DNA from: Opitutaceae bacterium
GTDB taxonomy: Bacteria; Verrucomicrobiota; Verrucomicrobiia; Opitutales; Opitutaceae
Length of the DNA stretch: 64,000 bases
Direction: 5' to 3'
Assembly (NCBI GenBank): GCA_030693515.1
Contig: JAUYAK010000003.1
Span: forward strand, 1-64,000
The number at the start of each line of letters is the position of its first letter. The first letter of the stretch is position 1. Shown one piece after another: positions 19,526 to 36,488 of this stretch. The position numbers were made by a program, and so were the translations under genes. The notes below the pieces were generated by a model. It saw nothing but the letters and a program-made list of their open reading frames with translations. It did not search any database and was not told where the DNA came from.

Positions 19526-21946
19526 ATGAAACGGACCCTGTCTCCCCCTCGATTTCGTTGTCGCGCGGGGTGTTGGCTCTTGCACCCGGGATGGCGGCTG
19601 GCGGGGCTGGCTCTCATCGCGGGCGCGCTGGGCCTGGCACCGGCGCACGCGGCGGACGAGGACAGCAACGACGGCCCGGTGCGCTTTCACGACGTCAAGG
19701 GCTGGCGGGGCACGCTCGTCGCCACGGCTCGGCCGAGCAAGATGGCGCTTGATCTCATGGGCTCCACCCTGACCGGCAAAGGGGTCAAGTGGAACCTGGA
19801 CTACACTGTCTATGTGAACGTCGAGTTTGTCCTCACCGATTATGAGAGCGATCCCTCGGTGTGGAAAGGGCGGGTCGAGCGCGCGGATTATTCGAGCGGC
19901 TATCGCTGGGCCACCCAATCGTCCGGAGGGAAGACGGAATGCGTGTTCAACTCCGAGGGGCCGCTGGATTTTTCGGGTGATGCGCGGGTCGAGCTGCAGT
20001 TCCATCGGCAAAGAGGCTGGTCGGTGCGGATGCCCTCGGGCCGGCGCACCACGGAGCTGCGGGAGAAATGGACTTCGCCGGAGGGGAAGGTTTTCCCCTC
20101 CAGTTTCACTGGCCACACTTATGGGATGGGTTCGACCAAGACGCACCCCTACCCGAAGCAGGGCTTCATCCTTTTCGCCTCTGATGAGACGAAGGAGGGT
20201 TCATTTGCGGGGGTGGGCGGCTCCATGACCGCGACGCCGGCGCTGACCTGGGACTATACAATCTATCTGGAGCCCACCTCGATGACGGAGCTCCGCCTGG
20301 AGTTTGAGGACACGGCGGCGTATCGCGAATGGCGGCCCGACGCCAAGCCCGACGGCGGGCCGGGCACTCCGCTCGAAATCAAGGCCACGCTGGTCGCCGC
20401 CGACGGCAGCAGGCCCAAGGCCGATATCAAGAGCTTTGTCTGGGAACTCACCGGCACTTCGACGGAGCCCGGCATCGCGATGAACTATCCCGTCAACCCG
20501 CAGGATTTCGACTATGACTTGGAGCTCGAAGCGACTGGGCCGATGTCGGTCCTCGACAATGCCAAGCAGCGCGTGACGCGCGCGGTGCGCAGCGGATTTT
20601 CCGACACCGTCAAGATCGTGCCCCGCGACTGGGGCGGCTGGGCCACGCTGCAGGCGACGGCCATCCTCACCGACGGCCGCCGCGTGCAGGGCAAGCTCAA
20701 GGGCAAAAAGGAGACCGGTCTCCGGCTCCCGAAACGCGCGGCCGACTCAAAGATCGCCGATAGCTGGAAGGAGCGGAACAAGTCCGGCGCCGACAGTCTC
20801 GACGACGAGGACGAACCCGTGGGCGACGGCAACAAGGGCGACGGTTTTACGCTCTACGAGGAGTATCGCGGTTTCATCGTGGAGGGTCAGCACGTCGAGG
20901 GTGACCCGAAGAAGAAGGATTTCTTCGTGCTTAATCTCATCGGGGGCGACGCGGAGCCCGGTATCGATTTGTTTGCCTCTCTTTCGCAGCTGCGGGTCCA
21001 TTCGCGGCTGCGGCCCGAGGAAATGTCCGAGACGACGCGGCTGATGAACGGCAACAATTCGCAGGGCGCCCACCGGGTCGATCAGCACGGCGTGTGGGTG
21101 AAGACCTTTAGCAAGGCCACGCTGGGCGACACTGGAGCTCAAACACCCATGACCGAGGCCGGAGTCGCGGGCCGGCCCGGCATCACCAAGGGCATCGGCA
21201 TCCTCGCGCGCGACGACACGGAGAGCGCCTTCAACCAGCCCTTCAACCTGCCGCCGTCGGACACGACCTTCGCCTACGATCGGGCGATCGCGCATGAGCT
21301 GCTGCACTCCGTGGGTGCCGAGCATCACGGCAGCGGGGATTACCGGCAGATCATGGGCTACTGCTCGCCGCGGCATCCGTTGAACAAATTGGGCCGGCCT
21401 TACTACGGCTACAGCGCCGACGCCCCCATTATCCTGCTCGACGAAGACGGCCAGGACGTGGCCGCCAAGGACTTTCCCGATTACGTCAAATTCCGTGAGT
21501 TCATCGACATGATGATGCTCGATCGCTATCTCAAGGAAGGGCAGGACTACATCACCCGCAATGGTGTCGGTTACTCCGGCTTCAACACCCCGCAGCAATA
21601 CGCGGACTTCCACATCGAGCTGTTGCTCGTCTTTCCCTTCATGAGTTTGGACGGGACCGTCGGCGTCGAACGCGGCGAGCATTCCGGTCATCAGGATTGC
21701 GTCATGCGCTACTCGTTCGCGAAGTTCTACGAGGCCAAAGCGGCCGCCCAAAAAACCCTCTACGTCGTCACACCAGGGACGGAGCGAATCGGCCTGCAGC
21801 TATGCCAAGCCGCCGCCGGCACCGGGATCAACTCGCCCGGCCGCCGGCCGCAGTCGCGCTATGGCGATGCCGGCGCGGGCGGGGGAAACTGCGCCGCCCA
21901 AATCTGCCCGAACGACGCGATTCCGCCGCGAAAGGTGAAACCATGA
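19526..21946 (+). CDS. Secreted putative zincin metalloprotease, unit 1
   Basis: 806 residues with a long N-terminal signal peptide (hydrophobic [18 protein letters not shown]). The body is beta-rich (residues ~45-440), then an acidic [17 protein letters not shown] segment, a zincin site [13 protein letters not shown] (H590, E591, H594, H600) followed by IMGYC as a possible Met-turn, and a C-terminal cysteine region ending [11 protein letters not shown]. HExxHxxGxxH is the metzincin zinc-binding pattern; proteolysis itself is inferred. Paralogues at 28336 and 32445 share the zinc site, the [11 protein letters not shown] segment and the cysteine tail. Its stop overlaps the start of the next gene by ATGA. 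Confidence 0.7.
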
Positions 21947-23463
21947 ACCTTGCGATGCGATGGTTCGCGCCGGCCATGGTGGCGGCGGTGGTGTCGGCGC
22001 AGGCGGCCGTGCCGGCCGCCCCTCAGCTCTCGTTGTCCCTGCGCGGTGTCGCCGAGGGCGTGGCTCAGCCTGGCGAATCACTCCGGATTGTCGTGCGTGT
22101 GGCCGCCCCCCGAGCGAGCGCGGCCAAGATCACCCTCGCGCCCGCAAACGGCGCCTGGAGCGACGCGGTGAGCATCGAGCTTTGGCCGGCGGTGGGCGGC
22201 GCGGCCGTGGCGAAGGCGGAGGGCGTGGGGCGGCCGGAATCGCCTTCGGCCACGCTGGGCGCCGGCCGCATCGCCGGTGGTTTGTGGCGTTTCCCGTCGG
22301 AGGTGACGCAGCGCCTCGCTCCGGGCAGTTACCAGGTGCGCGCGCGCCTCGCGATTCGCGATGGCTCTGGCTGGAGGGGCGAGGTCGAGGCGGTGGCCCT
22401 CCCACTGCGCATCGTGGCGCCCTCCAGCGACCCCGATCGAATTACGCAGCTGACTGTGAATCGCGCCCACGATGAGCTCGTGCGCGGGCTGGTCGAGGCG
22501 GCGGCGGCCGTCCTCGATGCGCAGCTGGGTTCCATGCCGGACGATGTTCGTCTCCTGACTGCGCGCGCCGAGGTGGCGCTGCGGGCCGGCAACCCTGCCG
22601 CCGCGCTCATGTGCTTGAATCGCGTGCCGTCGGGAAAATCGGTCGGACCGCCTTCCTCGGAACGTGACGCGCTGCTTGTGCGCGTGAGGACGGCACTGCG
22701 CGAGATGTCAGGAACTACGTCCAAACCCCCGGCTTGGAGCTGGCCGCCCGCCAAGGTGATGGAACTTTCAGCCGAGAAAAAAGCGTCGGCCTTGAGAAAC
22801 GCTCTTCCGCGCACACCCCCGTCCGCGGCGAACACTCCGCCGGTTGCCAGCGGAGTGTCTGGCGGACCTGCTCGTCCTGTCCCGGCCACACCGCCTGTCG
22901 CAGCACCGGCCATCACGGCCAAAGCCCCTTCAACCGGCCCGAAAATCGGTGCGCCTTCGGCCGGGGTGGTCGTGCCCGCCGCCGAGCTCGACGATAAAAA
23001 AATCCGCGCCGATGCCGCCGGCCAGTGGGCGGCGAGCGCCAACGCCGGTTCCTCCTATAGCAAGCCCAACTACGGCCCGGCGAAAGCCACGGGCGCACCG
23101 GATGTTGGCGTGGCCGGCGACAGCATCGAGGCGTGGTGCCCAGGCCAGCAGAACGCCGGCACCGAATGGCTGGAGGTTGCATTTGCGCAGCCGACACGGG
23201 CCGCCGAGGTGCGGGTGCGGCAGAATCACAACCCCGGGGCGATCGTGAAGGTGGAAGCGTTTGAAGCGGACGGCACGGCGCACGTCTGGTGGGAGGGCAA
23301 GGATCCCTACGTCGCGCCGGCGATTCGCGACATCGCCTGGTTTGCCGTCCGCGTGCCACCGACCGATTACGCGGTCGCGAAGGTGAAGCTCACCCTCAAC
23401 CTCGCGGCGGTGCCCGGGTGGAAACAGATCGATGCGGTGCAGCTGGTGGGACAAGGCCGCTGA
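21943..23463 (+). CDS. Exported protein with C-terminal discoidin-like domain, unit 1
   Basis: 506 residues: signal peptide; N-terminal beta domain opening LSLSLRGVAEGVAQPGESL; a LRIVAPSSDP junction; a helical TPR-like stretch (~190-230); a Pro/Ala-rich linker; a conserved DDKKIRADAAGQWAAS helix; and a C-terminal beta-sandwich (~360-505) with TEWLEVAFAQP, NHNPGAIVKVEA and GWKQIDAVQLVG. The last resembles the galactose-binding/discoidin-like fold. Suggested role is binding glycans or cell-surface targets for its partner protease (inferred). ATG at 21943 overlaps the protease stop, implying translational coupling. Confidence 0.7.
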   Translation: MNLAMRWFAPAMVAAVVSAQAAVPAAPQLSLSLRGVAEGVAQPGESLRIVVRVAAPRASAAKITLAPANGAWSDAVSIELWPAVGGAAVAKAEGVGRPESPSATLGAGRIAGGLWRFPSEVTQRLAPGSYQVRARLAIRDGSGWRGEVEAVALPLRIVAPSSDPDRITQLTVNRAHDELVRGLVEAAAAVLDAQLGSMPDDVRLLTARAEVALRAGNPAAALMCLNRVPSGKSVGPPSSERDALLVRVRTALREMSGTTSKPPAWSWPPAKVMELSAEKKASALRNALPRTPPSAANTPPVASGVSGGPARPVPATPPVAAPAITAKAPSTGPKIGAPSAGVVVPAAELDDKKIRADAAGQWAASANAGSSYSKPNYGPAKATGAPDVGVAGDSIEAWCPGQQNAGTEWLEVAFAQPTRAAEVRVRQNHNPGAIVKVEAFEADGTAHVWWEGKDPYVAPAIRDIAWFAVRVPPTDYAVAKVKLTLNLAAVPGWKQIDAVQLVGQGR

Positions 23464-23561
23464 TGGCATTCAACGATTATCGCTAAGCTTCACGCCTTGG
23501 GGACCGGCCAGGTCGCCTAAAATCGGGTTGTAGTTACGCATGCTCACACTCTGTTAGTCCC

Positions 23562-25340
23562 ATGAAATCCCCTCGATCGCTTGGGTGGCTTCGTTGCGGC
23601 GCGACTTTTCTCGCCGGTCCGATCATCGCGTCGGGCGTGATGGCAGCCGACACGTCGCCACCGACCACGCCGCTCGGCGGCCTCGTCAAGAAATTCACTG
23701 AGAAACGCACCGCGCAAGCCGTCCCGGCCACGCAACCTGTAGCACAGCCGGTCGCTCGCCCCGTGGCGCAACCGATCGCGACCGCGGTCAACCCCGACCC
23801 CGCGGCGAAGAAGGCCGCGACGCGCAAGCCCTCGCCGCCGCTCGCGAGCCTGCCTGCCCCGAAGGCAGCCTCCGGGCCGCTACGCATCTTGATCGTGGAC
23901 GACGACTGGTCCGACAATAACCGACCCGGCAGCGACGCGCGTCTCTCGGGCTCAGACGAAATTTTTCGAGCGCTCGTGGCCGCCGCCGTCGGCGACGAGG
24001 CGTCAGCCTGGTCGGCTGAGATCGTGGAGACTTACAAGCATGGCCCGGCCTTCGAACGGTTGCGCGATTTCAACGTCGTCCTCTGGTATACGGGCGGCTC
24101 CTACGGAGGCGGCTCTGACAACGTCGCGGTGCTGAGCATCGAGGATGAAAAGACGGTCCGGCGTTATCTTCAGGAAGCCGGAGGCTCTTTCATTTTGGTT
24201 TCGCCCGGTTACGTGAACAACCTGTCCTATGGCTCCTCTTGGACGGAATCCGCTCACCCTTTCCTCAAGGACGTCGCAGGCATCGCGGGCTTCTCCGGCC
24301 TCGTGCAGCGGTTCGACGCCGGAAAGGTGCGGGCCCCTGACGGCTCAAGTTTCACCGTGATGCAGAAGGGCGCCGCTGAGCCACAGTTCAGCGCGGTGAA
24401 TCCCGATGGCGCGGCCATCGTGTTCACTTCGTCACTTGATCCCTTGAAAACCGCGAAGGAGCCCGTGCCCGTCGCCGTCGCGCATCCGTTTGCCGGCGGA
24501 CGCTTCGTCTATGTGGGGTTCACCTTTGAGAATGTTGCGGAGGAGGAGCGCGCGAAGGCGTTCAAGCTCCTGCTCGATGCCGCGACCGGCCCGCGTGCCG
24601 CCCCCGGGGCTGCCGCGCCGCGCGTCACACCGACCGTCGTCCAACGCAAGACCCCGCCGCAACGGATCGTGGGGGTAGTGGAGCCGGCGCCGCCCGTGCC
24701 ACCGCCCGTCCCCACACCAACAGTGCCAGAGGCAGAGGAGCCGAACCCCAAGCTCACGTTCACCGGCCTGACCTATTTCAAGACCGCAAAGATCAAAATC
24801 TTCACGGGCAATGACAACAAGGAGGCGCCGTCGACAGGAATCATCGAATTGCTTGTCAACGGCGGCGGACGCGACGGTGACGGCGTCACGGATCCCAATC
24901 GCCCGGAGCAACTGGCGCGTGGTTTTGTGCCGAATCAGGAATTCCGGGTTAATTCCACGTATGAATCCGTGATCGAACACACGCCGGGCGCTCGGAAAAA
25001 GCAGTATGAATATATCAAGGCCAACACCTGGGCCGAACAGGACCGCATTACACTCGAGCGCTGCCAGCACTATGGGCTTCGACTGGAGATCACCTACGAG
25101 CCGAACTTTGTCCTCGATGCGTGGAAGATCGACCGCGTGGAGCTCGAAATCGACTTCGGATTTTGGGAGTGGTGGCTTTACAGAGGAAACCGCGAGTTAG
25201 GGACGCAGACTCAACGATACCTGGTGTCAAAACCCGCCCCCGGGTTTCCGCGGGTAATCTCGTTCAACCGCAGCGCACTCCTTAACGACGCGAACAAGAA
25301 GCTGGTGCTCTTAACGGACGGGTTCTTTTTTCCGAAGTAG
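23562..25340 (+). CDS. Exported protein with class I amidotransferase-like domain
   Basis: 592 residues. After a signal peptide comes PLGGLVKKFTEKRTAQ, shared with the next gene, then a Pro/Ala-rich linker. Residues ~105-340 look like a ThuA/class I glutamine-amidotransferase-like flavodoxin fold (LRILIVDDDWSDNN, VVLWYTGGSY, YLQEAGGSFILVSPG). A second Pro-rich linker leads to a beta-rich C-terminal domain (~395-592). No catalytic cysteine is evident, so this may be a non-enzymatic structural use of the fold. I do not recognise a named family. It lies between units 1 and 2 of the protease locus. Confidence 0.6.
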   Translation: MKSPRSLGWLRCGATFLAGPIIASGVMAADTSPPTTPLGGLVKKFTEKRTAQAVPATQPVAQPVARPVAQPIATAVNPDPAAKKAATRKPSPPLASLPAPKAASGPLRILIVDDDWSDNNRPGSDARLSGSDEIFRALVAAAVGDEASAWSAEIVETYKHGPAFERLRDFNVVLWYTGGSYGGGSDNVAVLSIEDEKTVRRYLQEAGGSFILVSPGYVNNLSYGSSWTESAHPFLKDVAGIAGFSGLVQRFDAGKVRAPDGSSFTVMQKGAAEPQFSAVNPDGAAIVFTSSLDPLKTAKEPVPVAVAHPFAGGRFVYVGFTFENVAEEERAKAFKLLLDAATGPRAAPGAAAPRVTPTVVQRKTPPQRIVGVVEPAPPVPPPVPTPTVPEAEEPNPKLTFTGLTYFKTAKIKIFTGNDNKEAPSTGIIELLVNGGGRDGDGVTDPNRPEQLARGFVPNQEFRVNSTYESVIEHTPGARKKQYEYIKANTWAEQDRITLERCQHYGLRLEITYEPNFVLDAWKIDRVELEIDFGFWEWWLYRGNRELGTQTQRYLVSKPAPGFPRVISFNRSALLNDANKKLVLLTDGFFFPK

Positions 25341-25392
25341 CCACGCGGCGCTTCGCTGTCCCCGAAGATTCCTCCGGCAACTCTCCCGCAAC

Positions 25393-27198
25393 ATGACTCC
25401 CACCCGTTCCCGTAGCCCGGCCCGGCGCTTTGCTCCGCGTCTCCTCCTAGCATTTGCGTTGTCGCTGGCGCCGCTCTCCGCTTCCGACACGCCTCCGCCG
25501 CCGTCGTCGCCGCTCAGTGGCCTCGTCAAGAAGCTCGCCGAAAAACGCGCCGCGCAATCCGCCGCGAAGCCGACCAAGGAGCAGCTTCTGCGGCCCGAGT
25601 TTCGCTTCAAGGCCGCGCCCGGCTGGCTCCTTCTCCCCGATCTCGCCAAGCAGCTCACGACCAACGAAACCGAGCGCGCGGCGGTCTTCGACCTGCTGGA
25701 CGCGGGAGCGCGCGAGGCCCGGAAGCTCCTCGTCGCCGAGGCCGAGGGCGCCGATCGCGATGTGGCGGTGGCCACTTCGCTCTTCATCTCGCAGCTCTGG
25801 GGCATCGTGCGGCAAACGGAGCCGACCGAGGAGGCGGGCGATGCCTTGCACGCGCAGATTGTCGGCGTGCTGGCCGGGCCCGAAGTCGCCCGCATGAGCG
25901 ATGCGGACAAGCAGAAGTATTGGGAGTTCTGCGTCGGGTTTCCGGTCTTCGCGATGGGCATGAAGGAGGTCGCGACCGAACCTTCCGCGCAGGAGGATCT
26001 GCGCAAGATCGCGGCCGCCGGCTTCGAGTCGCTCATCGGCGTCGACCCCCGGCTCGTTGATCTTGGGGCGCAGGGGATGGTGGTGCGCGCGGGGCTCGAG
26101 GAAGCGGCGCGAAAAATGAAGGCAGACGAAGCCGCCGCGGCGAATCCCGCGCCCACGGCGGTGACGATCGTGCGCGCTCCGGTTCCGGCTGCGACGGTGG
26201 CCAGCGGGCCTGGAATTTCCGGCATCACCTACACGCCGCCTTCGGGCTGGACGCGCGAGAATGCCAGCTGGGCCACGATTTTTCGCGCGACGCTGGCCGA
26301 CGTGAACAAGGACGGCTCGCGCGATCCCAGCGGCGAGGGGCGTCATCAGGCGTCGATCTTTGTGCTGCCGCCGCGGGCGATGACGGGTGGCGCGCACGCG
26401 ACCTTCGATGCGGTCTGGCGCGAGCAGTTCGACTCCTTCGAGCTGGGCGACACGATTGTGCATTATCGCGCGCGGATCAAAAGCGGCCTCGTGATTCACT
26501 ACATGGGCCGGTTCTTCGACCGAAAGGTTCGGAATGAGCGATCGCTGAAAAACTACGCGGTGCTCTACCTCGTCGATCTGGGCGGCGGCCGGGTGCAGCC
26601 GATCACCGCGGTCGTCGAGCCTGTGAATTCGGGCATCGGCATGGCCTCGTTCAAGGAGTCGGCGGCGTTTAGTGCGCTCTGGTGGCCGCTCACCGCGCTG
26701 CTGGACTCCGTGCAGCCGGCGGGCGGACGCGCGCCGTTTCCGACGGGCGGGGTCTTCGCGGCGTCGGACCTGCAGGGCGATTGGAGCACGACGAGCAGCG
26801 CGTTCGGTGGATTTTATGTCAACAGCATGACGGGTGCGAGCGCGGGGGTGGCGACCCACTCGTCCTCCGGCGCGTTCCGCCTCGGGGCCGACGGCACCTA
26901 CGACTACTCGATCATGTTTGCGACGACCAACCCGCAGTTCGGGAATACCAGCGGTTCGGAAAAGCACTCCGGCCGCTATCGGCTCGACGGCGACATCGTG
27001 CTCATCGAGCCCTCGAAGCCCATCCCGTATAAATTCACCCGTTGCGCCGTTGGCATTGGCACCCGCCAGACGCCGGGGGGATTGAAACGCATGCTCGTGT
27101 TGGTCAGCGCCGACAGCAGCGGCGTCTTCCGTGCGCCCCAGCTCATGCCCAACTGGGATTTTTATGAGGGCACGATGACGTGGTATGTGGAAAAATGA
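25393..27198 (+). CDS. Exported hypothetical protein, helical N-domain and lipocalin-like C-domain
   Basis: 601 residues. Signal peptide, then PLSGLVKKLAEKRAAQ as in the preceding gene. Residues ~60-220 are helical (PGWLLLPDLAKQL, VATSLFISQLWGIVRQTEP) and recall the DUF6683 type, but I am unsure. Residues ~275-440 are a beta-rich domain opening TYTPPSGWTRENASWATIF, and ~470-600 a small barrel-like domain (LQGDWSTTSSAFGGFYVNS, SGRYRLDGDIVLIEPSK). No catalytic motif seen. Same strand as and close behind 23562-25340; probably co-transcribed. Confidence 0.6.
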   Translation: MTPTRSRSPARRFAPRLLLAFALSLAPLSASDTPPPPSSPLSGLVKKLAEKRAAQSAAKPTKEQLLRPEFRFKAAPGWLLLPDLAKQLTTNETERAAVFDLLDAGAREARKLLVAEAEGADRDVAVATSLFISQLWGIVRQTEPTEEAGDALHAQIVGVLAGPEVARMSDADKQKYWEFCVGFPVFAMGMKEVATEPSAQEDLRKIAAAGFESLIGVDPRLVDLGAQGMVVRAGLEEAARKMKADEAAAANPAPTAVTIVRAPVPAATVASGPGISGITYTPPSGWTRENASWATIFRATLADVNKDGSRDPSGEGRHQASIFVLPPRAMTGGAHATFDAVWREQFDSFELGDTIVHYRARIKSGLVIHYMGRFFDRKVRNERSLKNYAVLYLVDLGGGRVQPITAVVEPVNSGIGMASFKESAAFSALWWPLTALLDSVQPAGGRAPFPTGGVFAASDLQGDWSTTSSAFGGFYVNSMTGASAGVATHSSSGAFRLGADGTYDYSIMFATTNPQFGNTSGSEKHSGRYRLDGDIVLIEPSKPIPYKFTRCAVGIGTRQTPGGLKRMLVLVSADSSGVFRAPQLMPNWDFYEGTMTWYVEK

Positions 27199-27261
27199 GC
27201 ATCCCCGGTGCAAGCTCCGGGGCATTTGAGCCAACTCATGCCATCCGCCGGTTCGCCGTGT

Positions 27262-27372
27262 CCCGGGGAGCGCACCCGTCTCGGGTGCCGCTCTCGGCGG
27301 GACGCCGAGAGCGGTTCGGAAGGCTCGGGCGGGACGCCCGAGCCGGCCTGCGAGACGCAGGCGCTCCCCGGG
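27262..27372. repeat. Nested palindromic repeat (R7)
   Basis: Outer 12-base inverted repeat CCCGGGGAGCGC (27262-27273 and 27361-27372) enclosing two hairpins, CTCTCGGCG-GGA-CGCCGAGAG (27291-27311) and GGCTCGGGCG-GGA-CGCCCGAGCC (27322-27344). The 231-base gap 27199-27429 contains this element and no gene I can support. Confidence 0.85.
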
Positions 27373-27429
27373 AATCGCTGCCCGACCGTGCGGTTTGACC
27401 GCGCGGCGTAATCCCCACTCACCCTACCC

Positions 27430-28161
27430 ATGCCTGCGCCAAAACCAAAGGGACTCTGGCTGCTGCGGACCCTCGTCGTGGCCGGCGCGCTGCTGGCCGG
27501 CCTCGGAGGATGGCTGCTCACGACCGACTTTGCGGAGCGCGACGCGGCGCGGGTCGCCGAGCTTCCGCAGGTCCTGCCGGAGAAATTTCAGGGCTTGGTT
27601 CCCGGCCAGAGCGTCCTGCTCGAGGGCATGCTGGCGTCGTCCGAGCCGGTGGGGCCGCAGGGGTTCATCGTTTACCGCCGAGAACAGTTTAACGGCTTCG
27701 AGGAGTCGGGCGTAAACCAGGGCCAGCGAAAATGGCTCGGCCTCGGGACGGTGACCCCGGCCATCGCGATCGGCGCCGGCGCCGCGTCGGTCGCCGTGAG
27801 CAATCGCGACTACCGGCTGAACACTGAGCCGCACGTCTGGATGTCGGACGTGACTCCCCGCTACGTCTCGGTTTTCGATGCCACCGAGCGCCTGCTCGGT
27901 TTCAAGGCCGGCGATCGCGTGACGGTGGACGGCCGCGTCGTCGCGGGCCTGGGCGATCGGCGGGCGCCCCAGCGCATCGAGGCGACGGTGCTCTTCGGCG
28001 GCGGCGCGGCCGCCTACGTCGAGTCGGTGCGCGGCGGCGTGCTGGTCGTCAAGATCGTGGGCGCGGTGTTCCTCGGCCTGGGGGCGCTGCTGATGGGGGT
28101 GTGCGGATGGTGGCTGCGCTCGTTCCGGCAAAAAACGAATCGCAGGCGCGACGGAAAATGA
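27430..28161 (+). CDS. Two-span membrane protein with central extracytoplasmic domain
   Basis: 243 residues: N-terminal membrane helix (LRTLVVAGALLAGLGGWLL), a beta-rich central domain including VLLEGMLASSEPVGPQGFIVYRREQ and FKAGDRVTVDGRVVAGLG, and a C-terminal helix (VGAVFLGLGALLMGVCGWWL) with a basic tail. The layout recalls bacterial GIDE/TMEM43-like membrane proteins, but that match is weak and no function is claimed. It sits between the exported-protein pair and unit 2. Confidence 0.6.
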   Translation: MPAPKPKGLWLLRTLVVAGALLAGLGGWLLTTDFAERDAARVAELPQVLPEKFQGLVPGQSVLLEGMLASSEPVGPQGFIVYRREQFNGFEESGVNQGQRKWLGLGTVTPAIAIGAGAASVAVSNRDYRLNTEPHVWMSDVTPRYVSVFDATERLLGFKAGDRVTVDGRVVAGLGDRRAPQRIEATVLFGGGAAAYVESVRGGVLVVKIVGAVFLGLGALLMGVCGWWLRSFRQKTNRRRDGK

Positions 28162-28335
28162 TCGGGCGGCAGGCTGTGCGACCATGCCGCCGCCGAATCT
28201 CGCTTCCCGTCCGGCTTCCGCCGAAGTGATTCGGTGCTGCTGCCCGCCTGCGAACCTGGTCGCGGCCAACGGCAAAAAAGATCCCATGGTCGCGTGGGAT
28301 TGACGCCCGATGCGGGGCCCGGCTCAGTTCCCATC

Positions 28336-30888
28336 GTGCCTTTCACCCGCGCAATCACGGCTTCCATCCAGCTAGTCTCGGGTTGGAGTTTGAAGCGTCT
28401 GGCCCCGATGGTGTGCGGTGCCGCTCTCCTGCTGGGAAATGTCGGTTGGACGGCGGACAACGCCGAGGCCTGGCGCGCGGTCGCGCGCATCCGCGGTTCG
28501 GTGACGCTTGAGACACGGGAGTGGATCGAGGAGAAGGACGACAAGCTCAATGCCACCGAGGCGGTCACCGTGCGGTTCGTGCTGGCGCGCGATCGGAGTG
28601 ACGAGCCGGCGCAGATGGCTTTGCCACCCGGGCTGCCGGCGGAAGCCGCGGCTCTGCTGCGTTCCGCGCTGACGCAGCCCGACGAGCTGCCCGCTTCGAC
28701 CAGTTGGCGGGCGGAAAAGGCCGAGATCAGCGGCTCCAGAAGCAGCGCGGGCTATAACAAGGTCCAGGGAACGATCACACAGCAGGCGAGCTACAGCGGC
28801 ACGCCTGCGAAGTTGCAGGACTTTTTTCTCGTCCTCGATTTTGAGTCCGGCAAATGGCAGACCAGCTCACCGGGTTTCCTGCGCGACCAATATCCGATCA
28901 ACGTCGTGGCCGTCTCCGAGGTCCCGGGGTTGTCGGGCACGTGGTCGACCCTGACCAACATCGTGCCGAACGGGGTGTTCGACGGCACCGTCTCGGGCAA
29001 GCCCGGCGCGTTCGGCGGCCCGGTTTCCTTCACCAAGCCCAATCACCTCCCGCCGACCCGGGGCTATGTCATGACCGGCACGATCCGGTTGTGGCCGGAG
29101 TTCGACGATGTGGCCGTGGACGTGACGATCGAGGGCTACGACAAATGGCGGCCGCTCGGCACGATCGTGAAGCCCGGCACGCCGGGGAATTCCCTCGTCG
29201 CGCGCGCGACGCTCGTCCCGAAGGGTGGTCGCGTGGAGGATCTGCCGGCGGTGAAAACGTTTCGTTTTCAACTGCTCGACACTTCGCGCGAACCCGGTGT
29301 GTGCCTGAACTGGCCGCTCAACGCGAAGGACGACGACTACGATCTGCGCCTCGCGGCCGCGCCGCCCTTCCTCGGCACGCTCTCGGCCAAGGATCAAAGC
29401 AACGAGGTGGGCCTGACGGCGAAGGATGACCAGGGCCGGCCTTACGCCGAGACGAAGATCGACAGCTACGACTTCGGCGGCCGCGCTTCGCTGCGCGTGA
29501 TTTGCACGCTGACCGACGGCCGGGAGATCATCGGAGTCATGAAAGACGGAGGGCGGGGCGAAGACCTGATCCGGCTGCCCAAGATGAGCGGGGCGGGGTG
29601 GATCGCCACGGCCTGGAAAGAAGAGAAGGGCGTGGCGGCGCTGGCGGATGACGACGACAGTGAGAAGGTGGAAGGCCAGCCCATGGATGGCGACGGCTAC
29701 ACCCTGTATGAGGAGTATCGTGGCTGGGCGGAAAACGGGCAGCACGTCGAAGGCGACCCCAAGGCGAAAGAACTTTTTGTGCTGAACAGGATCGGCGCCG
29801 ATGCGATTGGGGGATTCAAATTGTTTGAGCGGGAGTCGAAGGTGAAGATCCGTTACCAGCTGCGCCCCGCGGAAATGTCGGAGGAAGCGCGCCTGATGAA
29901 CGGCAACCATCGCGATGCGCCGCATCGCGTCGATCAGCACGGGGTTTGGATCTTCAACGCGGACGGCACGGGCATTCCGGAGGCCGGCACGACGGGCATG
30001 ACCGCGGCCGACGCGGGGCGCGCCTTTCGCCCGGGCCGGGTGCGCTACATCGTGATCGAAACGCGCACGATCAGCGATGCGATCTTCGGCATGGCACGGA
30101 GTGTGGGTTTCTACAAATTGACCGAGCGCGACGCCGTGTTCGCCTACGATCGGGCGGTGGCGCACGAGTTGTTGCACGCCGTCGGAGTGGATCACCACGG
30201 TGAGGGCGAAGACGCCAACGAGTTCTATTTCGTGGCGGCCAGCGACCCGAACAATTCCACTCATCGCGCCGGCTTTTCGCCGCATCTACCCCAAACGTCG
30301 GATATCGATCTGAGAAAGATGCCCGGCTATATCTTTAGGGGCGATGAGCTGAAGCGGTGGGCGCCCGTGCAGCTGCTCTGGGAGGACACGGGGCGCAACT
30401 TGGCGGAGGAATTGGCGCCCATGTATGAGCGCAAACTGGCGGCGGAGCGCGCGCGGCGGGCGGCCAATCCACCGGCGCCCAATGAAGACCCGGGGCGATG
30501 GGCCACGCAGTATCCGCAGTATGGGAAGAGCGCGGCCTATTGGCAGGAATCGGCCGTTTATGATGCGGTCGCGTATAACAACGACGAGTTTAAGGTGCGC
30601 GCCACGATTGGCGAACCGGGCCAGGCGGACTCCGGCCACGAACTCTGCCTGATGCGTTATTATTTTGCCACGGCGTATCCGGTGAAGGGCCAGACGAAGA
30701 CGTATTATGTCGTGCGACCGGGCCAGAATCGCGCGGGCCGCACCATTTGTCGCGCGCCGGCCGGCACGGGCGCCAATGCCGCCTCGCATCAACCGCAGTC
30801 GCGGTTTGGCGATTCGTCGCCGGGCCGGGGCAATTGTTTCGCTCAAATCTGTCCCAACGATGCCATTCCTCCGCGCTCGCTTCATTAA
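28336..30888 (+). CDS. Secreted putative zincin metalloprotease, unit 2
   Basis: About 850 residues, paralogous to the product of 19526-21946. The signal peptide is LKRLAPMVCGAALLLGNVGW. The start is uncertain: GTG 28336 is chosen, and TTG 28390 gives a compact signal. Key features: [34 protein letters not shown], zinc site HELLHAVGVDHHG (H610, E611, H614, H620), and the tail CLMRYYFATAYPV...[16 protein letters not shown]. There is no obvious Met-turn after the zinc site, unlike unit 1, and the region between the site and the cysteine tail is longer. It overlaps the next gene by 29 bases. Confidence 0.68.
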   Translation: MPFTRAITASIQLVSGWSLKRLAPMVCGAALLLGNVGWTADNAEAWRAVARIRGSVTLETREWIEEKDDKLNATEAVTVRFVLARDRSDEPAQMALPPGLPAEAAALLRSALTQPDELPASTSWRAEKAEISGSRSSAGYNKVQGTITQQASYSGTPAKLQDFFLVLDFESGKWQTSSPGFLRDQYPINVVAVSEVPGLSGTWSTLTNIVPNGVFDGTVSGKPGAFGGPVSFTKPNHLPPTRGYVMTGTIRLWPEFDDVAVDVTIEGYDKWRPLGTIVKPGTPGNSLVARATLVPKGGRVEDLPAVKTFRFQLLDTSREPGVCLNWPLNAKDDDYDLRLAAAPPFLGTLSAKDQSNEVGLTAKDDQGRPYAETKIDSYDFGGRASLRVICTLTDGREIIGVMKDGGRGEDLIRLPKMSGAGWIATAWKEEKGVAALADDDDSEKVEGQPMDGDGYTLYEEYRGWAENGQHVEGDPKAKELFVLNRIGADAIGGFKLFERESKVKIRYQLRPAEMSEEARLMNGNHRDAPHRVDQHGVWIFNADGTGIPEAGTTGMTAADAGRAFRPGRVRYIVIETRTISDAIFGMARSVGFYKLTERDAVFAYDRAVAHELLHAVGVDHHGEGEDANEFYFVAASDPNNSTHRAGFSPHLPQTSDIDLRKMPGYIFRGDELKRWAPVQLLWEDTGRNLAEELAPMYERKLAAERARRAANPPAPNEDPGRWATQYPQYGKSAAYWQESAVYDAVAYNNDEFKVRATIGEPGQADSGHELCLMRYYFATAYPVKGQTKTYYVVRPGQNRAGRTICRAPAGTGANAASHQPQSRFGDSSPGRGNCFAQICPNDAIPPRSLH

Positions 30889-32428
30889 GCTGATCCCCCG
30901 GCTCGCCGGTTTGCTGGCCGCGGCCGGTCTCGCCGTCGCGTCGCTGGGTGGCTCCGAGGCGGTGGCACCGGAGGTCAGTATCTCCCTGCGCGGCGTGATT
31001 GGCGGAGTCGTCGAGGTGGGTGAGCCGCTCTTCGTCGCCGTCCGCATTGATTTGCCGCCGGGGCGGGCCCAGACCCTGCCGGCGGGTTGGCGCGACGCGA
31101 TGGCGATCGAAATCGCGGCTCGCGCCGGGGGCAGCGCGGCGGCCCGGGCGCGGGCGATCCCGGCGACGAACGAACCTCCGGCAAATGCCGATGAAGAGCC
31201 CTGGTTTGGCGAGGTGTGGTGGTTTTCGGCCGAGGACCTGAAGGCGGTGCGGCCGGGCGCCTATGTGGTTCGGGCCGCGCTTCGAATTCGCGAGGGCGAC
31301 CGCTGGAAAGGCGAAGCCTGGTCCGAGCCGGCGCCGCTCGAAATTGTCGCTCCCTCCCAAGACCCCAGGCGCAGGGAGCAAAAGACCATCGCACAGGCCC
31401 TCGCCGCAGTGGCCGAGGGTGCGCCCGCGCGGGCTGCGGCACTCTTGGACGACGCGCTGCGGGTGAGCCCGGACCGAATCCCCGTGCTGGTGGCGCGCAC
31501 GCAGGTGGCTTTGAGCATGGGGGATGTCCGGGCGGCGTCGTTTTGTCTGCGGCGCGCGCGGGCGCTGGCAGCCCGGGAGAAGGGCAAGCCCTCGATCACC
31601 TTGCACGCCCTGTCGGTGCAGATTGAGCAAGCGCTGGCCGATCCCGTGGTGCGCGACGCGCCGTCGGCTTGGGCCCAGCTTCCGGCCGGTGTGCTGGAGC
31701 CGGTGCGGCCGGTGGCGGGTCGGGCGGGCGAAACGAAGGATCAAGTGCCACTCGCGGTGTCGCCGACGGTTCCGACCAAGGTTGAGTCGGCCCCGCCGCC
31801 GGTCGCAAAGCCGTTGGCGGCCAAATCGTCGAAGGCGAGTTCCCTGCCACCGGCGGCCGCGAACCCGGCATACAATCCGTTGAAACCGTTCGAAGTCATC
31901 ACGGCGTCGTCGACGCTCGGGCAAATCGTGCCCGCCGCGGATCTCGACGACAAAAAGATCCGCGCCGATGCCGCCGGGCAGTGGGCGGCGAGCGCGACGG
32001 CGAGTTCGCAGTATGGCACGCCGCGTTATGCGCCGGCGCAGGCTACGGGGGCGCCGAGCGTCCCGCTCGGCATGGCCGGCGATAATCCCGACGCGTGGTG
32101 TCCCGCGAAAAAAGACGAAGGCATCGAGTGGCTGGAAGTGACTTTCGCGAAACCGGTCCCCGCCACGGAAGTGCGGGTCCTGCAAAACAACACCCCCGGC
32201 GCCATCGCGAAAGTCGAGGTTATCGAGCCCAACGGCACGGTGCACCTCTGGTGGGAAGGCAAGGATCCCTACATCGCGCCCGCCGTGCGCGAGATCGCGT
32301 GGTTTGTCGTGCGTGTGCCGAAGACCGCCTACGCGGTCGCAAAGGTAAAGCTGACGCTCAATCTCGCCGCCACGACTTCCGGCTGGAAACAGATCGATGC
32401 GGTGCAGTTGGTGGGGCAGGTGCCATAA
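30860..32428 (+). CDS. Exported protein with C-terminal discoidin-like domain, unit 2
   Basis: 522 residues. Signal peptide MPFLRARFIKLIPRLAGLLA..., N-terminal beta domain (VSISLRGVIGGVVEVGEPL), LEIVAPSQDP junction, TPR-like helices (~155-215), Pro/Ala linker, DLDDKKIRADAAGQWAASA, then the discoidin-like domain (IEWLEVTFAKP, NNTPGAIAKVE, GWKQIDAVQLVG). The last ~165 residues are almost identical to those of unit 3 (34884-36488), whereas the N-terminal parts have diverged strongly. ATG 30860 lies within the 3' end of the protease gene. Confidence 0.68.
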   Translation: MPFLRARFIKLIPRLAGLLAAAGLAVASLGGSEAVAPEVSISLRGVIGGVVEVGEPLFVAVRIDLPPGRAQTLPAGWRDAMAIEIAARAGGSAAARARAIPATNEPPANADEEPWFGEVWWFSAEDLKAVRPGAYVVRAALRIREGDRWKGEAWSEPAPLEIVAPSQDPRRREQKTIAQALAAVAEGAPARAAALLDDALRVSPDRIPVLVARTQVALSMGDVRAASFCLRRARALAAREKGKPSITLHALSVQIEQALADPVVRDAPSAWAQLPAGVLEPVRPVAGRAGETKDQVPLAVSPTVPTKVESAPPPVAKPLAAKSSKASSLPPAAANPAYNPLKPFEVITASSTLGQIVPAADLDDKKIRADAAGQWAASATASSQYGTPRYAPAQATGAPSVPLGMAGDNPDAWCPAKKDEGIEWLEVTFAKPVPATEVRVLQNNTPGAIAKVEVIEPNGTVHLWWEGKDPYIAPAVREIAWFVVRVPKTAYAVAKVKLTLNLAATTSGWKQIDAVQLVGQVP

Positions 32429-32444
32429 TTCAACGATCACTCTC

Positions 32445-34887
32445 ATGCTGACTTTCCCCTTTGGTGGCCGCCGTTCGGTCGTGGGAGGGCTTCGCGCCGC
32501 CGTGCTGGTCGGGCTCATGGCGTCGGAGAGCGCCGCTTTTGCCGCGGAGAACCCCGCCGGGCGCCCGCCGCTGGACTGGTCGGGCTGGGCCTCTGTGCGC
32601 CAGTTTGAAGGCACCGTCACGCTAAGCTATCGCCAGGAACACGAGGAGCGTTCGACGCTTAGCACCCAATCAGGCCAGTCTTGGGAAAGCGTCTCGCTGC
32701 GCTTCACGCTGGAGCGCGATCCGGACGATACCGAAGGCAACACGAGGGCGTGGCGTTGCATCCGGATGCGGGCGGAGGTGTCAGGCTCGAGCTGGATGCA
32801 TCGAGTCTCCACCGACGAAACCTTTTGGCGAACGGCTGAGAGCTTCGGTTACAAAGGCGATTTGGATCAAAGTCAGGAGATGACGTTGTGGTTGGATGTC
32901 GAAACGGGACGGTGGCGCCTGGCCACCCCCAACCGCACGGCCCAGCCCTACCAGGTGGCAGTGTCCGGCGTCGCCAAACACGCCTCGTGGAAACCCGCCG
33001 AAACGTCGGCGTCTTCCGAATCCCGGACACTTATCGAGGTCGGCAATTTCAACGGCAGTGCGGAGAAAACGGTCGGCGGATTGCAGGCCTCGAAGGTCAT
33101 CGATATGAGCGTGAACCTGCCCAACGGCAGCAGCCCCGGCTTCAGGGAGCAGCGGCTGCTGCTGCGGCCGATTATGGATGACTATGAGCTGGAGGTAACG
33201 ATCGCGGACTACGCCAAGTGGCGTCCGCGGGGCACGGTGGCGGCGCCGGACAAGCCGGGCAACAACCTGACGGCCAAAGCGACCGTGATGCGGAAAGGCG
33301 GCGGCGGACCGCCGGCGATCGTGAGTTCGATTCAGTTCGCGTTGCTGGACACCTCGCGCGAGCCGGGCGTGTGCCTGAACTGGCCGCTAGGCGCAAAGGA
33401 CCGCAATCCGGACCTCAAGCTCGGGCTGCCGCCGCTCTGCCCCGGCACGCTGTCGAAAGAGGATCAGCGCTTTGAGGTGACGTCGCCGCTGGCGGACGAG
33501 CAGGGGCGGCCGTATGCACTGGCGCAAATCGACAGCTATGATTTTGGCGGCCGGTCCAGCCTCTATGTGACCTGCAAGCTCGCCGATGGCCGCGAACTGG
33601 TGGGCGAGCTCAAGGGTGAAAGTGGCGAGCCCGGCCAGGATCTGATCCGGCTGCCGAAGATGGACGGGCCGGGTTGGATCGCCGAGGCGTGGAAAAAGGA
33701 AAAGGGCGTGGCCGGATTGGGGGACGACGACGACAGCGAAAAGGTGGAGGATCAGGAGGACAATGGTGACGGCTACACTTTGTATGAGGAGTATCGCGGC
33801 TGGGTGGAAAACGGGCAGCACCTCGAAGGTGATCCGAAGGCGAAGGATTTTTTTGTGCTGAACCTCATCGGCGCCGACGCGCGGCCTGGCATCGCGTTGT
33901 TCGAGCAAGTCTCAGCGCTGCGCGTGCACTCGAAGCTGCGGCGCAGCGAGATGTCGCAGACCGCGCGGTTGATGAACGGCAACCGGCGGGACGCGCCGCA
34001 CCGCGTCGATCAGCACGGGGTGTGGGTGAAGACCTTCACGCTGGCGGGACTGGGCGACACCGGCGCGGCCACGCCGATGACGAAGCGCGGTGTGGCGGGC
34101 CGCCCCGGAATTACGAAAGGCGTCGGCATTCTGGCGCGCGGCGATGCGCAGAGTGCGTTCAACAAACCTTACAACCTGCCGGCGCAGGATGCGATTTTCG
34201 CCTATGATCGCGCCATCGCGCACGAGTTGCTGCATTCGGTGGGGGTCGAGCATCATGGCGATGGCGACGAGCAGCTGTCCGTCTGGTGGGTGTCACCACG
34301 GCACCCGCGCAACAAGATTGGCCGGCCTTATTTTCGCGGGTCGAGCAATGCGTGGGGCGGGCGGGACGACGTTTACACGCTCCTCAATGAGAAAGGGCGA
34401 GGACTTGGCGATGAAGTTCATGGAGAGCTATGCGTCCGACCGGAAGGTCACCGAGGATTTTTATGGGGAGCAGATCAAGGCCGAGGCCCGCGATTACGTG
34501 AAGAAATACGTCGTGGGCATGGAAAACCCCAGGTTCAAGACTGCGGAGGAATACTACGACTACATGCTGGAGGATAAAATTACCCGCATGTTCCTCGCCG
34601 AAATCGTCGGCATGCCGCAGGGCCCGCACTCAGGCGATCAGGACTGTCTGATGCGCTATTATTTTGCCACCTTCTATCCGAAGAAAGGGGCGGTCGAAAC
34701 CTATTACCAGGTGACGCCAGGCACGGAGCGAATCGGCATGGACCTGTGCCGCTCGGGCACGGGCACCGGCATCAACGCCGCATCGCATCAGCCGCAGGCA
34801 CGCTACTTCAACGCGGCCGGCAGCGCGGGCAACTGCTTCAAGCAAATCTGCCCGAACGACGCCGTGCCGCCGCGGAAAACAAAATGA
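32445..34887 (+). pseudogene. Secreted putative zincin metalloprotease, unit 3, one frameshift
   Basis: From ATG 32445 the frame gives a signal peptide and a body colinear with units 1 and 2, including [25 protein letters not shown] and zinc site [13 protein letters not shown] (H593, E594, H597, H603). At GAGAAAGGGCGAGGAC (34391-34406) it leaves the homologous frame. Dropping one G from GGG (34395-34397) restores EKGEDLAMKFMESY and carries on to the shared cysteine tail (CLMRYYFATFYPKKG...GNCFKQICPNDAVPPR) and the TGA at 34887. Either a fresh inactivation after the zinc site or a homopolymer error. The TGA overlaps the next gene's ATG. Confidence 0.7.
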
Positions 34888-36488
34888 AAACGCCCGTCCA
34901 TACGGCGCCCTTTCGCGCTGTTCTCCCTTGGCCGCTTTTGGCCATCAGCTTATGGGCCTTGCTGGCGGGACGCATTGGCGGCGCAACGAGCGGGCCTGGG
35001 GCCAGTCCCGAATTGTTCGTGTCGCTGCGCGGCGTGGTCGATGACGCGCTCGAACAAGGTGAGCCGCTGCAAGTCACTGTGCGCGTGGAGGCGTCGCGGC
35101 AAAGCGGCGGCACGACCGTGCTGGCACCGGCCAGCGGGACCTGGGCGGACGCCATTGCGGTCGAACTCGTTGCCGCCGGCGGCAGCACCGTGCTCGCGCG
35201 GGCGGCCGCGGTGGGCCGACCGGATTTGCCGCACGCCATGGTCGATCGCGCTCGCGTGGCGGGTGGGATGTGGATGTTTCCGCCGGGCACGACGCAGCGG
35301 CTCGCGCTGGGCGATTACCGGGTGCGCACCCGGCTGGTGCTGCGCACCGGTGAGGGCTGGCAGGGCGAGGTCGCCGCGGAGGAAGTGCCGCTGCGAATCG
35401 TGGCGGCCGCGATGACCCCGGAACGCGTGGCCGCGCGTGCCGTCGTGCAGGCCCGGGCGGCACTTGACGCCAACGCCCTGGAGGACGCGGCGCGCGGGCT
35501 GGATGGCCTGCTCGCGAAAACGCCGGATGATTTTGCGGCGCTCTGCCTCCGCGCCGAGATCGCGGAGCGGGCCGGCAATCTCCACGCGGCGATGGTCTGC
35601 GTGAACCGCGCCGCGCTGTTGATTTCCCGGGAGGACGGCGGACTGCCGCCGTTGGGCTTTGGCGAACTGCGCGCGCGCATCATGGCGGCACGGCTCGCAC
35701 AGACCGGCCCCGTGGCGAATCCGCCGGCGTGGTCCTGGCCGCCGGCCAATGTGCTCAAGCTGCCGGAAAAGGCGTTGTCGGAGGCGCAGTCGCCCCGCAC
35801 CGAGGTCCCGCCACTCGGCGTGGCGAAAAGCCAGCCGGTTGTGGTCGAACGTAACGCGGCCGCGCCTGTGGCGGTTTCAAGTGCGGTCACCGCGGCGGCG
35901 CCCACCCCGAAAATCACAGTGCCCGTGGCGACGCTACCCGTCGCCCCGACCGTTCCGGCGGCTGCCGGCTCACGCAGCGTCGGCGTGGTGCTGCCGGCCG
36001 CGGATCTCGACGACAAAAAGATCCGCGCGGACGCCGCCGGGCAGTGGGCGGCGAGCGCGACGGCGAGTTCGCAGTATGGCACGCCGCGGTATGCGCCGGC
36101 GCAGGCCACGGGGGCGCCGAGCGTCCCGCTCGGCATGGCCGGCGACAATCCCGACGCGTGGTGTCCCGCGAAAAAAGACGAAGGCATCGAGTGGCTGGAA
36201 GTGACCTTCGCGAAACCCGTTTCTGCCACAGAAGTGCGGGTGCTCCAGAACAACACCCCCGGCGCCATCGCGAAACTCGAGGCCATCGAGCCCAACGGCA
36301 CGGTGCACGTCTGGTGGGAAGGCAAGGACCCCTACATCGCGCCCGCCGTGCGCGAGATCGCGTGGTTTGTTGTCCGGGTGCCGAAGACGGCCTATGCGGT
36401 CGCAAAAGTGAAGATCACGCTCAACCTCGCCGCTACCGCCTCGGGTTGGAAACAGATCGATGCGGTGCAGCTGGTCGCGGCGCCATAG
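34884..36488 (+). CDS. Exported protein with C-terminal discoidin-like domain, unit 3
   Basis: 534 residues with the same order of parts as 21943 and 30860: signal peptide, LFVSLRGVVDDALEQGEPL beta domain, TPR-like helices, PPAWSWPPANV (also in unit 1), Pro/Val linker, DLDDKKIRADAAGQWAASA, discoidin-like domain. Its N-terminal half is closer to unit 1, while its C-terminal domain is nearly identical to unit 2, so the gene looks like a mosaic. ATG 34884 overlaps the protease stop (ATGA). Confidence 0.68.
   Translation: MKTPVHTAPFRAVLPWPLLAISLWALLAGRIGGATSGPGASPELFVSLRGVVDDALEQGEPLQVTVRVEASRQSGGTTVLAPASGTWADAIAVELVAAGGSTVLARAAAVGRPDLPHAMVDRARVAGGMWMFPPGTTQRLALGDYRVRTRLVLRTGEGWQGEVAAEEVPLRIVAAAMTPERVAARAVVQARAALDANALEDAARGLDGLLAKTPDDFAALCLRAEIAERAGNLHAAMVCVNRAALLISREDGGLPPLGFGELRARIMAARLAQTGPVANPPAWSWPPANVLKLPEKALSEAQSPRTEVPPLGVAKSQPVVVERNAAAPVAVSSAVTAAAPTPKITVPVATLPVAPTVPAAAGSRSVGVVLPAADLDDKKIRADAAGQWAASATASSQYGTPRYAPAQATGAPSVPLGMAGDNPDAWCPAKKDEGIEWLEVTFAKPVSATEVRVLQNNTPGAIAKLEAIEPNGTVHVWWEGKDPYIAPAVREIAWFVVRVPKTAYAVAKVKITLNLAATASGWKQIDAVQLVAAP

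Follow-up and report, generated by a model that had tools for sequence, protein, structure and literature searches.

Exported metzincin-like proteins and their downstream-encoded partners: co-inherited gene pairs in an array between purL and purF of an Opitutaceae bacterium

The first 64,000 nucleotides of contig JAUYAK010000003.1 from an Opitutaceae bacterium (GenBank assembly GCA_030693515.1; hereafter the window) belong to a 142 kb contig in a genome of 6.65 Mb and 130 contigs, and contain three two-gene units. Each unit is composed of a gene for a putative metzincin-like protease (A) and, directly downstream, a gene for an exported partner (B), numbered 1 to 3 (Table 1). The array consists of A1-B1, three other genes, A2-B2 and A3-B3, and is flanked by a purL-like gene (minus strand) and a purF-like gene (plus strand). 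An initial inspection of the letters of the window (the sequence-only reading) had given the coordinates and order of the units (19526-23463, 28336-32428 and 32445-36488), which were borne out, as were the cysteine tails ending QICPNDA(I/V)PPR and the overlap of stop and start codons (29 bases for unit 2, ATGA for the other two). The signal-like N-termini of the A proteins were also seen by eye, and the zinc motif was found in the form initially noted in A1 and A3, with HELLHAVG in A2. A fourth pair, with the protease-like gene A4, is encoded elsewhere in the genome, on contig C122, where stop and start share one base (TGATG).

Table 1. Position of the genes and gene segments of the three A-B units in the window
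Feature	Position	Strand	Description
A1	19526..21946	+	exported metzincin-like protein, 806 residues
A1 domains			Ig-like about 254-402; 12-residue segment 438-449; zinc motif 590-601; Met-turn CVMRY 725-729; cysteine tail (residues)
B1	21943..23463	+	exported partner, 506 residues; ATGA overlap with A1
B1 discoidin-like domain	22993..23460	+	fold match, domain alignment, Pfam scan
A2	28336..30888	+	second metzincin-like protein, GTG start, HELLHAVGVDHH, CLMRY
B2	30860..32428	+	partner of A2; start 29 bases inside A2
B2 segment	31929..32228	+	94% identical to B3 35992-36291
A3 upstream frame	32445..34577	+	signal region to zinc motif; register lost from about 34390 on
A3 downstream frame (+1)	34390..34887	+	CLMRY, QICPNDAVPPR; matches A1 residues 641-805
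B3	34884..36488	+	partner of A3; its start overlaps as ATGA with the stop ending A3 in the +1 frame
B3 segment	35992..36291	+	matches B2 31929-32228

The pairing was surveyed by scanning genome contigs with the patterns GDG[FY]TLYE and DPK[KA]K[DE][FL]F, which gave 35 loci (L numbers below; genomes carry G numbers). The testable A frames, each with at least 300 bp downstream, number 43, among which L067 contributes two frames of one broken gene; four further A genes, truncated at contig ends, were excluded and L035-L037 stand outside the count. L058 and L059 share a genome, and so do L039 and L048; the pairs derive almost wholly from metagenome-assembled genomes. B was encoded directly downstream on the same strand in 24 of the 43 frames, a result that refutes the idea that the two families are almost never adjacent in other genomes. 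At least 14 of these 24 pairs show an overlapping stop and start (ATGA, TGATG or TAATG), and A and B may be translationally coupled. The picture of an exported pair with a conserved partner and, in many cases, overlapping codons is supported. Moreover, A and B tree distances over 26 pairs were correlated with an r of 0.804, whereas the maximum among permutations was 0.39 and none out of 2000 reached the observed value. By their titles, the records with pairs presumably fall into about six phyla (Verrucomicrobiota, Pseudomonadota, Desulfobacterota, Acidobacteriota, a Phycisphaerales and a Fimbriimonadaceae record), where the labels 'Gammaproteobacteria' (L042) and 'Deltaproteobacteria' (L044) may be binning errors, because both records group with Opitutaceae-type pairs in the tree. 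Five of 288 sampled genomes from the phylum contain A, with B beside it in three (G000, G088 and G012, the B match of the last being weaker and interrupted by one stop) but not in G075 and G095. In G088, the segment L037:5260-6314 is the remnant of a second pair, comprising the end of an A gene, with CVMRY, and a B-like start that bears a lipobox-like GGC.

The sequence-only reading had described the locus as triplicated and expanded to three versions, which is misleading: the units are paralogs of long standing, and their purL-purF site is common to other genomes, where it carries varying numbers of copies. A2, A3 and A4 are only 33-45% identical to A1, and each of the four A proteins of the genome has its closest relative in another record: L038, L039 and L040 for A1, L044 and L042 for A2 and A3, and L051 for A4. 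In the relative G288, identity around unit 1 is 91%, but blastn gives no match for the 13 kb stretch that carries units 2 and 3, in place of which a TPR-like gene is present, and two A matches were found, one each of the A1 and A4 types. A recent triplication was ruled out by the A tree together with this content of G288. When 17 loci were searched by tblastn with the purL- and purF-like proteins of the window, A or A-B cassettes were found between both genes in L038/L075, L043 (two pairs), L045, L049/L036 (a solo A) and L050, with Pfam also for L045 and L050. In L039 and L052, A or A-B cassettes lie beside purL, close to the end of the contig. The recurrence of cassettes there in differing numbers indicates a common site with variable copy number. 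In a relative, at L075:9381-11396, a 671-residue exported-looking protein with a sub-threshold TPR match stands between B1 and purF, where units 2 and 3 would be. Eleven out of 18 A-bearing genomes, chosen for holding A, gave two or more A matches, some of them fragments. This common site, which recurs in several Opitutaceae-type records, is what an explanation of A and B as independent neighbours held together by an inherited purL-purF position would draw upon. Such an explanation is very improbable, as pairs also occur at other sites (C122, and L035 between other genes) and in other phyla, and it fits poorly with the many stop/start overlaps and the matching A and B trees.

The active site of A was analysed in an alignment of 44 rows (42 genes with one row each, and A3 with one row per piece), in which 43 rows cover each conserved position. 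Ten sequences left out of it were checked separately, namely six complete genes (A4, the A genes of L035 and L038, and three later copies, two in L062 and one in L064), a second gene in L052 that is cut, both L067 frames and the L037 remnant. In A1 numbering, H590, E591, H594, H601, C725, M727, Y729 and C760 are invariant in the 43 covering rows, and G597 (+7) is Gly in 33 of them. All six complete genes keep H590, E591, H594, H600, H601, C725, Y729 and C760. The metzincin motif HExxHxxGxxH(D) fits A1-A3, yet family-wide the His at +11 is better conserved as third His than the one at +10 (43/43 vs 41/43). A Met-turn of the form CxM(R)Y is present by sequence, its Cys, Met and Tyr found in each of the 43 covering rows, at 28-163 residues from the first His; among 42 rows measured, the seven with the least spacing have 28-44 and A2 has the most, with 163, so that A2-type proteins carry an insertion. 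As the patterns of the contig scan select for their own stretches, conservation there is partly by construction, but the His and Met-turn columns lie outside them and their conservation is thus more than chance. Altogether, the zincin-type active site that had been proposed for A is supported by these invariant columns, usually along with a Met-turn. As separate observations, A4 (L014:1899-4388) has Ile for the Met of the Met-turn, whereas its relative L051 has Met, and in Mucilaginibacter (L062 and L064) tandem A-like genes occur without B, the later copies of which keep HExxH and HH with Ile or Val at the Met-turn. A suggestion that these later copies are inactive was withdrawn, given the presence of HExxH with HH.

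The same columns bear on whether A is an enzyme at all. A could have a zincin fold but be catalytically dead and serve in structure or binding, and the pair would then form a surface complex without proteolysis, as its large N-terminal beta and Ig-like regions, its position outside known families and the loss of the Met-turn Met in some copies would allow. We consider this unlikely, with H590, E591 and H594 kept in every covering row and in the six further complete genes.

The class of A was approached with profiles and a structural model. No Pfam or NCBIfam model matched the A proteins of the window over cut-off, and the weak sub-cut-off matches of the 44 aligned members were largely to zincin families plus a few unrelated ones, including Reprolysin_3/4/5, the DUF4953 Met-zincin, matrixin, M66, M54 and Zincin_1 in Pfam, and archaemetzincin, serralysin and others in NCBIfam. 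Against sequences of the PDB, A1 alone gave no match; the A profile gave 22 at E up to 1, 20 of which, aligned at the active site, we take to be metzincins. The best of them was an astacin (M12A; E 0.0052). Astacins have Glu at +11, unlike A with its invariant His, and the Pfam Astacin cut-off was not reached by A, A2 alone being listed, with 10.8 bits for a cut-off of 22.5. In the A1 model, the predicted local distance difference test score (pLDDT) is 92-97 by blocks at the active site, and helices 474-487 and 583-595 are predicted at high pLDDT.

Regarding the partner, the model of B1 (mean pLDDT 81.7, predicted template modelling score 0.51) suggests an all-beta domain at about 30-157, TPR-type helices at 164-254, a low-confidence linker at about 295-334 and a discoidin-like domain at about 350-506. 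The best fold matches of this last domain were PAPP-A and PAPP-A2 (Z 16.9, 16.9 and 16.6), followed by CBM32-type and related modules with Z about 12-14, within a range of 12.4-16.9 over all discoidin-type matches. The discoidin domains of the three B proteins of the window align with one another. B1 is like F5/8 type C and CBM32 domains in its C-terminal fold (CBM32-type Z up to 14.3), but unlike the former in that the Pfam cut-off for F5/8C (PF00754, 28.2 bits) was not reached by B1 (15.2) or B3 (16.0), B2 being unlisted; an F5/8C match at E up to 1 was obtained for 11 of 16 discoidin domains scanned, at best 0.0013. B1 alone had no match among PDB sequences and its discoidin domain gave chance matches only, while a profile of 16 discoidin domains found factor VIII as best hit (E 0.052), with PAPP-A absent among the 25 matches listed. 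The link to PAPP-A appears in the fold and does not show in the sequence searches. Across the window B proteins no Pfam or NCBIfam model exceeded its cut-off on the shared core, and a B profile matched 28 of the 288 phylum genomes, mostly through the TPR part alone. In pairs of more distant records the Ig-like plus TPR core of B is retained and the discoidin domain absent or replaced. In this regard, the term 'discoidin-like partner' of the sequence-only reading holds for the fold of B1 and the sub-threshold F5/8C matches of B1 and B3, but not for the family, whose shared core is Ig-like plus TPR with a discoidin domain in part of the set only. Short proteins at L088:1408-2109 and L089:1126-1968 have a discoidin-like domain of B type without the B core. 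Both members of the pair have N-termini of apparent export type, and lipobox-like ones occur in several B proteins, flagged by script in L042, L044, L045, L054 and L061 and by eye in L037 and L057. The script flagged none in A, where two proteins encoded without B (L068 and L070) have lipobox-like N-termini by eye, which suggests that they may anchor themselves.

Given the conserved active-site residues of A and the adjacency and co-inheritance of both families, the reading that we favour, with an even chance of being right, is that A is a secreted metzincin-like zinc protease and B a dedicated scaffold that localises it by a variable tail or anchor. As part of it, A would be an exported protease of an undescribed metzincin-like family, presumably binding zinc and cleaving proteins. 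The next gene after A would yield a dedicated exported partner, often with an overlap of stop and start, whose Ig-like plus TPR core would bind A and whose exchangeable tail or anchor would place A on a surface. This anchor could be the discoidin-like domain, probably glycan- or protein-binding, in Opitutales-type pairs and a lipid anchor in some others. Once placed, A would cut extracellular or cell-surface proteins.

Several observations weigh against this localising role or against the class assigned to A. The +10 ligand position varies, with Glu for His in two of the 43 rows, and M727 is Met in only 2 of the 6 complete genes outside the alignment, the other four, including A4, having Ile or Val. 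Profile-profile comparison (hhalign) of the zincin region gave 39.7% for Reprolysin_4 relatives and 45.3% for M48 gluzincins, compared with 0.1% for an Ig-region control, which supports 'zincin' and not 'metzincin', as the clans are not separated. Fold searches with the whole A1 model retrieved no metzincin among the 50 matches listed per search, which correspond to the Ig-like region (about 254-415) and other domains; filled by the Ig-like region, these lists say nothing on the protease domain. On account of both results A is called 'metzincin-like'. As for the pairing, 19 of the 43 testable A frames have no adjacent B, comprising the second A in tandem A-B-A sets (L054, L057), the leading gene of the A-A-B set in L047, the solo Opitutaceae A of L049 and a distant group with Mucilaginibacter and others. 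The A of L049 (G075) is solo, with no B found in its genome; B is consequently not essential to every A. The agreement of A and B trees speaks for co-inheritance and not for contact, because shared genome ancestry contributes to it, and pairs in which B lacks both discoidin domain and lipobox would require some other anchoring.

Pairing and co-inheritance would fit equally well with a B that acts as cognate inhibitor of A, or as a substrate released on cleavage, A remaining silent until B is cut or titrated. This is the main rival of the scaffold role, and we hold it to be possible rather than probable. A precedent is found in Listeria, where, according to the published account, a secreted metzincin, Mtz, cleaves its lipoprotein substrate Tim, the two 'nearly always come in pairs', and the genes stand under a phage-type switch with a TIMP-like partner (PMC8235301). 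Some B proteins are lipoprotein-like too, and the long linker of B1 predicted with low confidence at about 295-334 might offer a cut site. On the other hand, B is a multidomain Ig-TPR-(discoidin) protein rather than a small TIMP-like one, even though the N-terminal domain of B1 is predicted to be all-beta. Mildly, the A genes without adjacent B are also odd for a dedicated brake, as is the absence of any B match in 10 of the 13 genomes of loci L049, L060 (cut at a contig end) and L062-L072, the remaining three giving discoidin-only or TPR-only matches. Compared by description only, both systems consist of adjacent genes for a secreted HExxH metzincin or metzincin-like protein and an exported partner that is sometimes a lipoprotein or resembles one, but A has large N-terminal domains and B its own Ig-TPR(-discoidin) architecture. 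The sequence-only statement that no described system has this pairing was therefore too strong in the wider sense.

The dedicated scaffold has a parallel in the pappalysins (M43; PAPP-A and PAPP-A2), with which A shares a metzincin-type site, a Met-turn and a Tyr two residues after its Met, the position of the 'tyrosine switch' in the pappalysins as described in PMC11674741. PAPP-A has in the same chain a part that matches the discoidin-like domain of B1 (Z 16.9, root-mean-square deviation 2.8, 143 residues aligned, 18% identity). In the pairs, by contrast, protease and discoidin-like domain belong to two proteins and A has no Pfam M43 match. Peptidase_M43 was not found for the window A proteins at E 1, was absent from the 13 families matched by the 44 members at E 0.1, and was not found in 115 genomes of the phylum. 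The central M1/M2 region of PAPP-A is a scaffold packed on the protease and helps, jointly with the protease domain, to bind the anchor peptide of the substrate (PMC9489782); it can be proposed as a one-chain analogue of the A-B arrangement.

Exchange of the discoidin segment is suggested by the comparison of B2 with B3. In windows of 40 codons their DNA identity is 32-63% in the first ten, 98, 90 and 92% in three discoidin windows and 77% at the end, and of the fourfold-degenerate sites 45 of 56 agree over the initial 100 columns of the domain vs 38 of 85 upstream. The opposite pattern holds for B1 and its G288 orthologue, with identities of 85-95% upstream but 68-70% across two windows of the discoidin domain; in these, the orthologue is nearer to B2 and B3 (77-86%). 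Movement of the segment between units by gene conversion may explain this pattern, as a lead and not as proof. Against it, the discoidin domain is generally the better-conserved part, and the fourfold agreement of B1 with B2 and B3 is also higher in the domain (27/43 and 25/43) than upstream (36/91 and 57/112). A bolder proposal, which we find unlikely, would see in the purL-purF array a self-diversifying protease-targeting locus, where tandem units in variable number swap discoidin segments by gene conversion and re-aim stable proteases at new surface targets, the zinc motif being one residue longer (invariant +11 His) than in classical metzincins.

Contrary to the initial description, A3 is not a single open frame. 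The frame 32445-34577 falls out of step at about 34390, and it is the frame 34390-34887 that encodes the Met-turn and the cysteine tail; this frame aligns to residues 641-805 of A1 at 46% identity. The shift goes from frame 0 to +1 at 34386-34420, beside a short A/G run, a direction that does not suit programmed frameshifting at a -1 slippery site. It may be a real indel or an assembly error; the relative searched, G288, has no unit 3. The leading B gene in L043, whose array has two pairs, is likewise split across two frames (L043:3192-5058), like A3 in the window.

With respect to the genes around the units, two exported-looking proteins encoded at 23562-25340 and 25393-27198 have a common PL(G/S)GLVKK motif near the N-terminus; in Pfam, the former matches ThuA weakly and the latter DUF6683 (E 3.9e-21), a term for which no paper was found in a search of the open-access literature. 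The 243-residue protein encoded at 27430-28161 has a hydrophobic N-terminus, a hydrophobic segment near the C-terminus and no Pfam match over cut-off. A third component did not emerge: P0008-P0010 found no counterpart when other A-B loci were searched, no similarity was detectable between the TPR-like protein encoded next to B1 in G288 and the TPR protein that follows B in L042, and twenty flanking genes at nine other loci had no theme in common beyond purL/purF.

A search restricted to open-access literature found no paper on the A family or on the A-B pair. Pairs of a metzincin and a partner are already known; in the window proteins, the shared core of either family stays below the cut-offs of Pfam and NCBIfam. 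The pairs described add an unnamed exported metzincin-like protease family with a co-inherited and closely coupled partner gene. They also make two ideas testable, namely that bacteria may use a protease and a discoidin scaffold in two chains where PAPP-A has a single one, and that tandem arrays may retarget a protease through the swapped binding domain of its scaffold.

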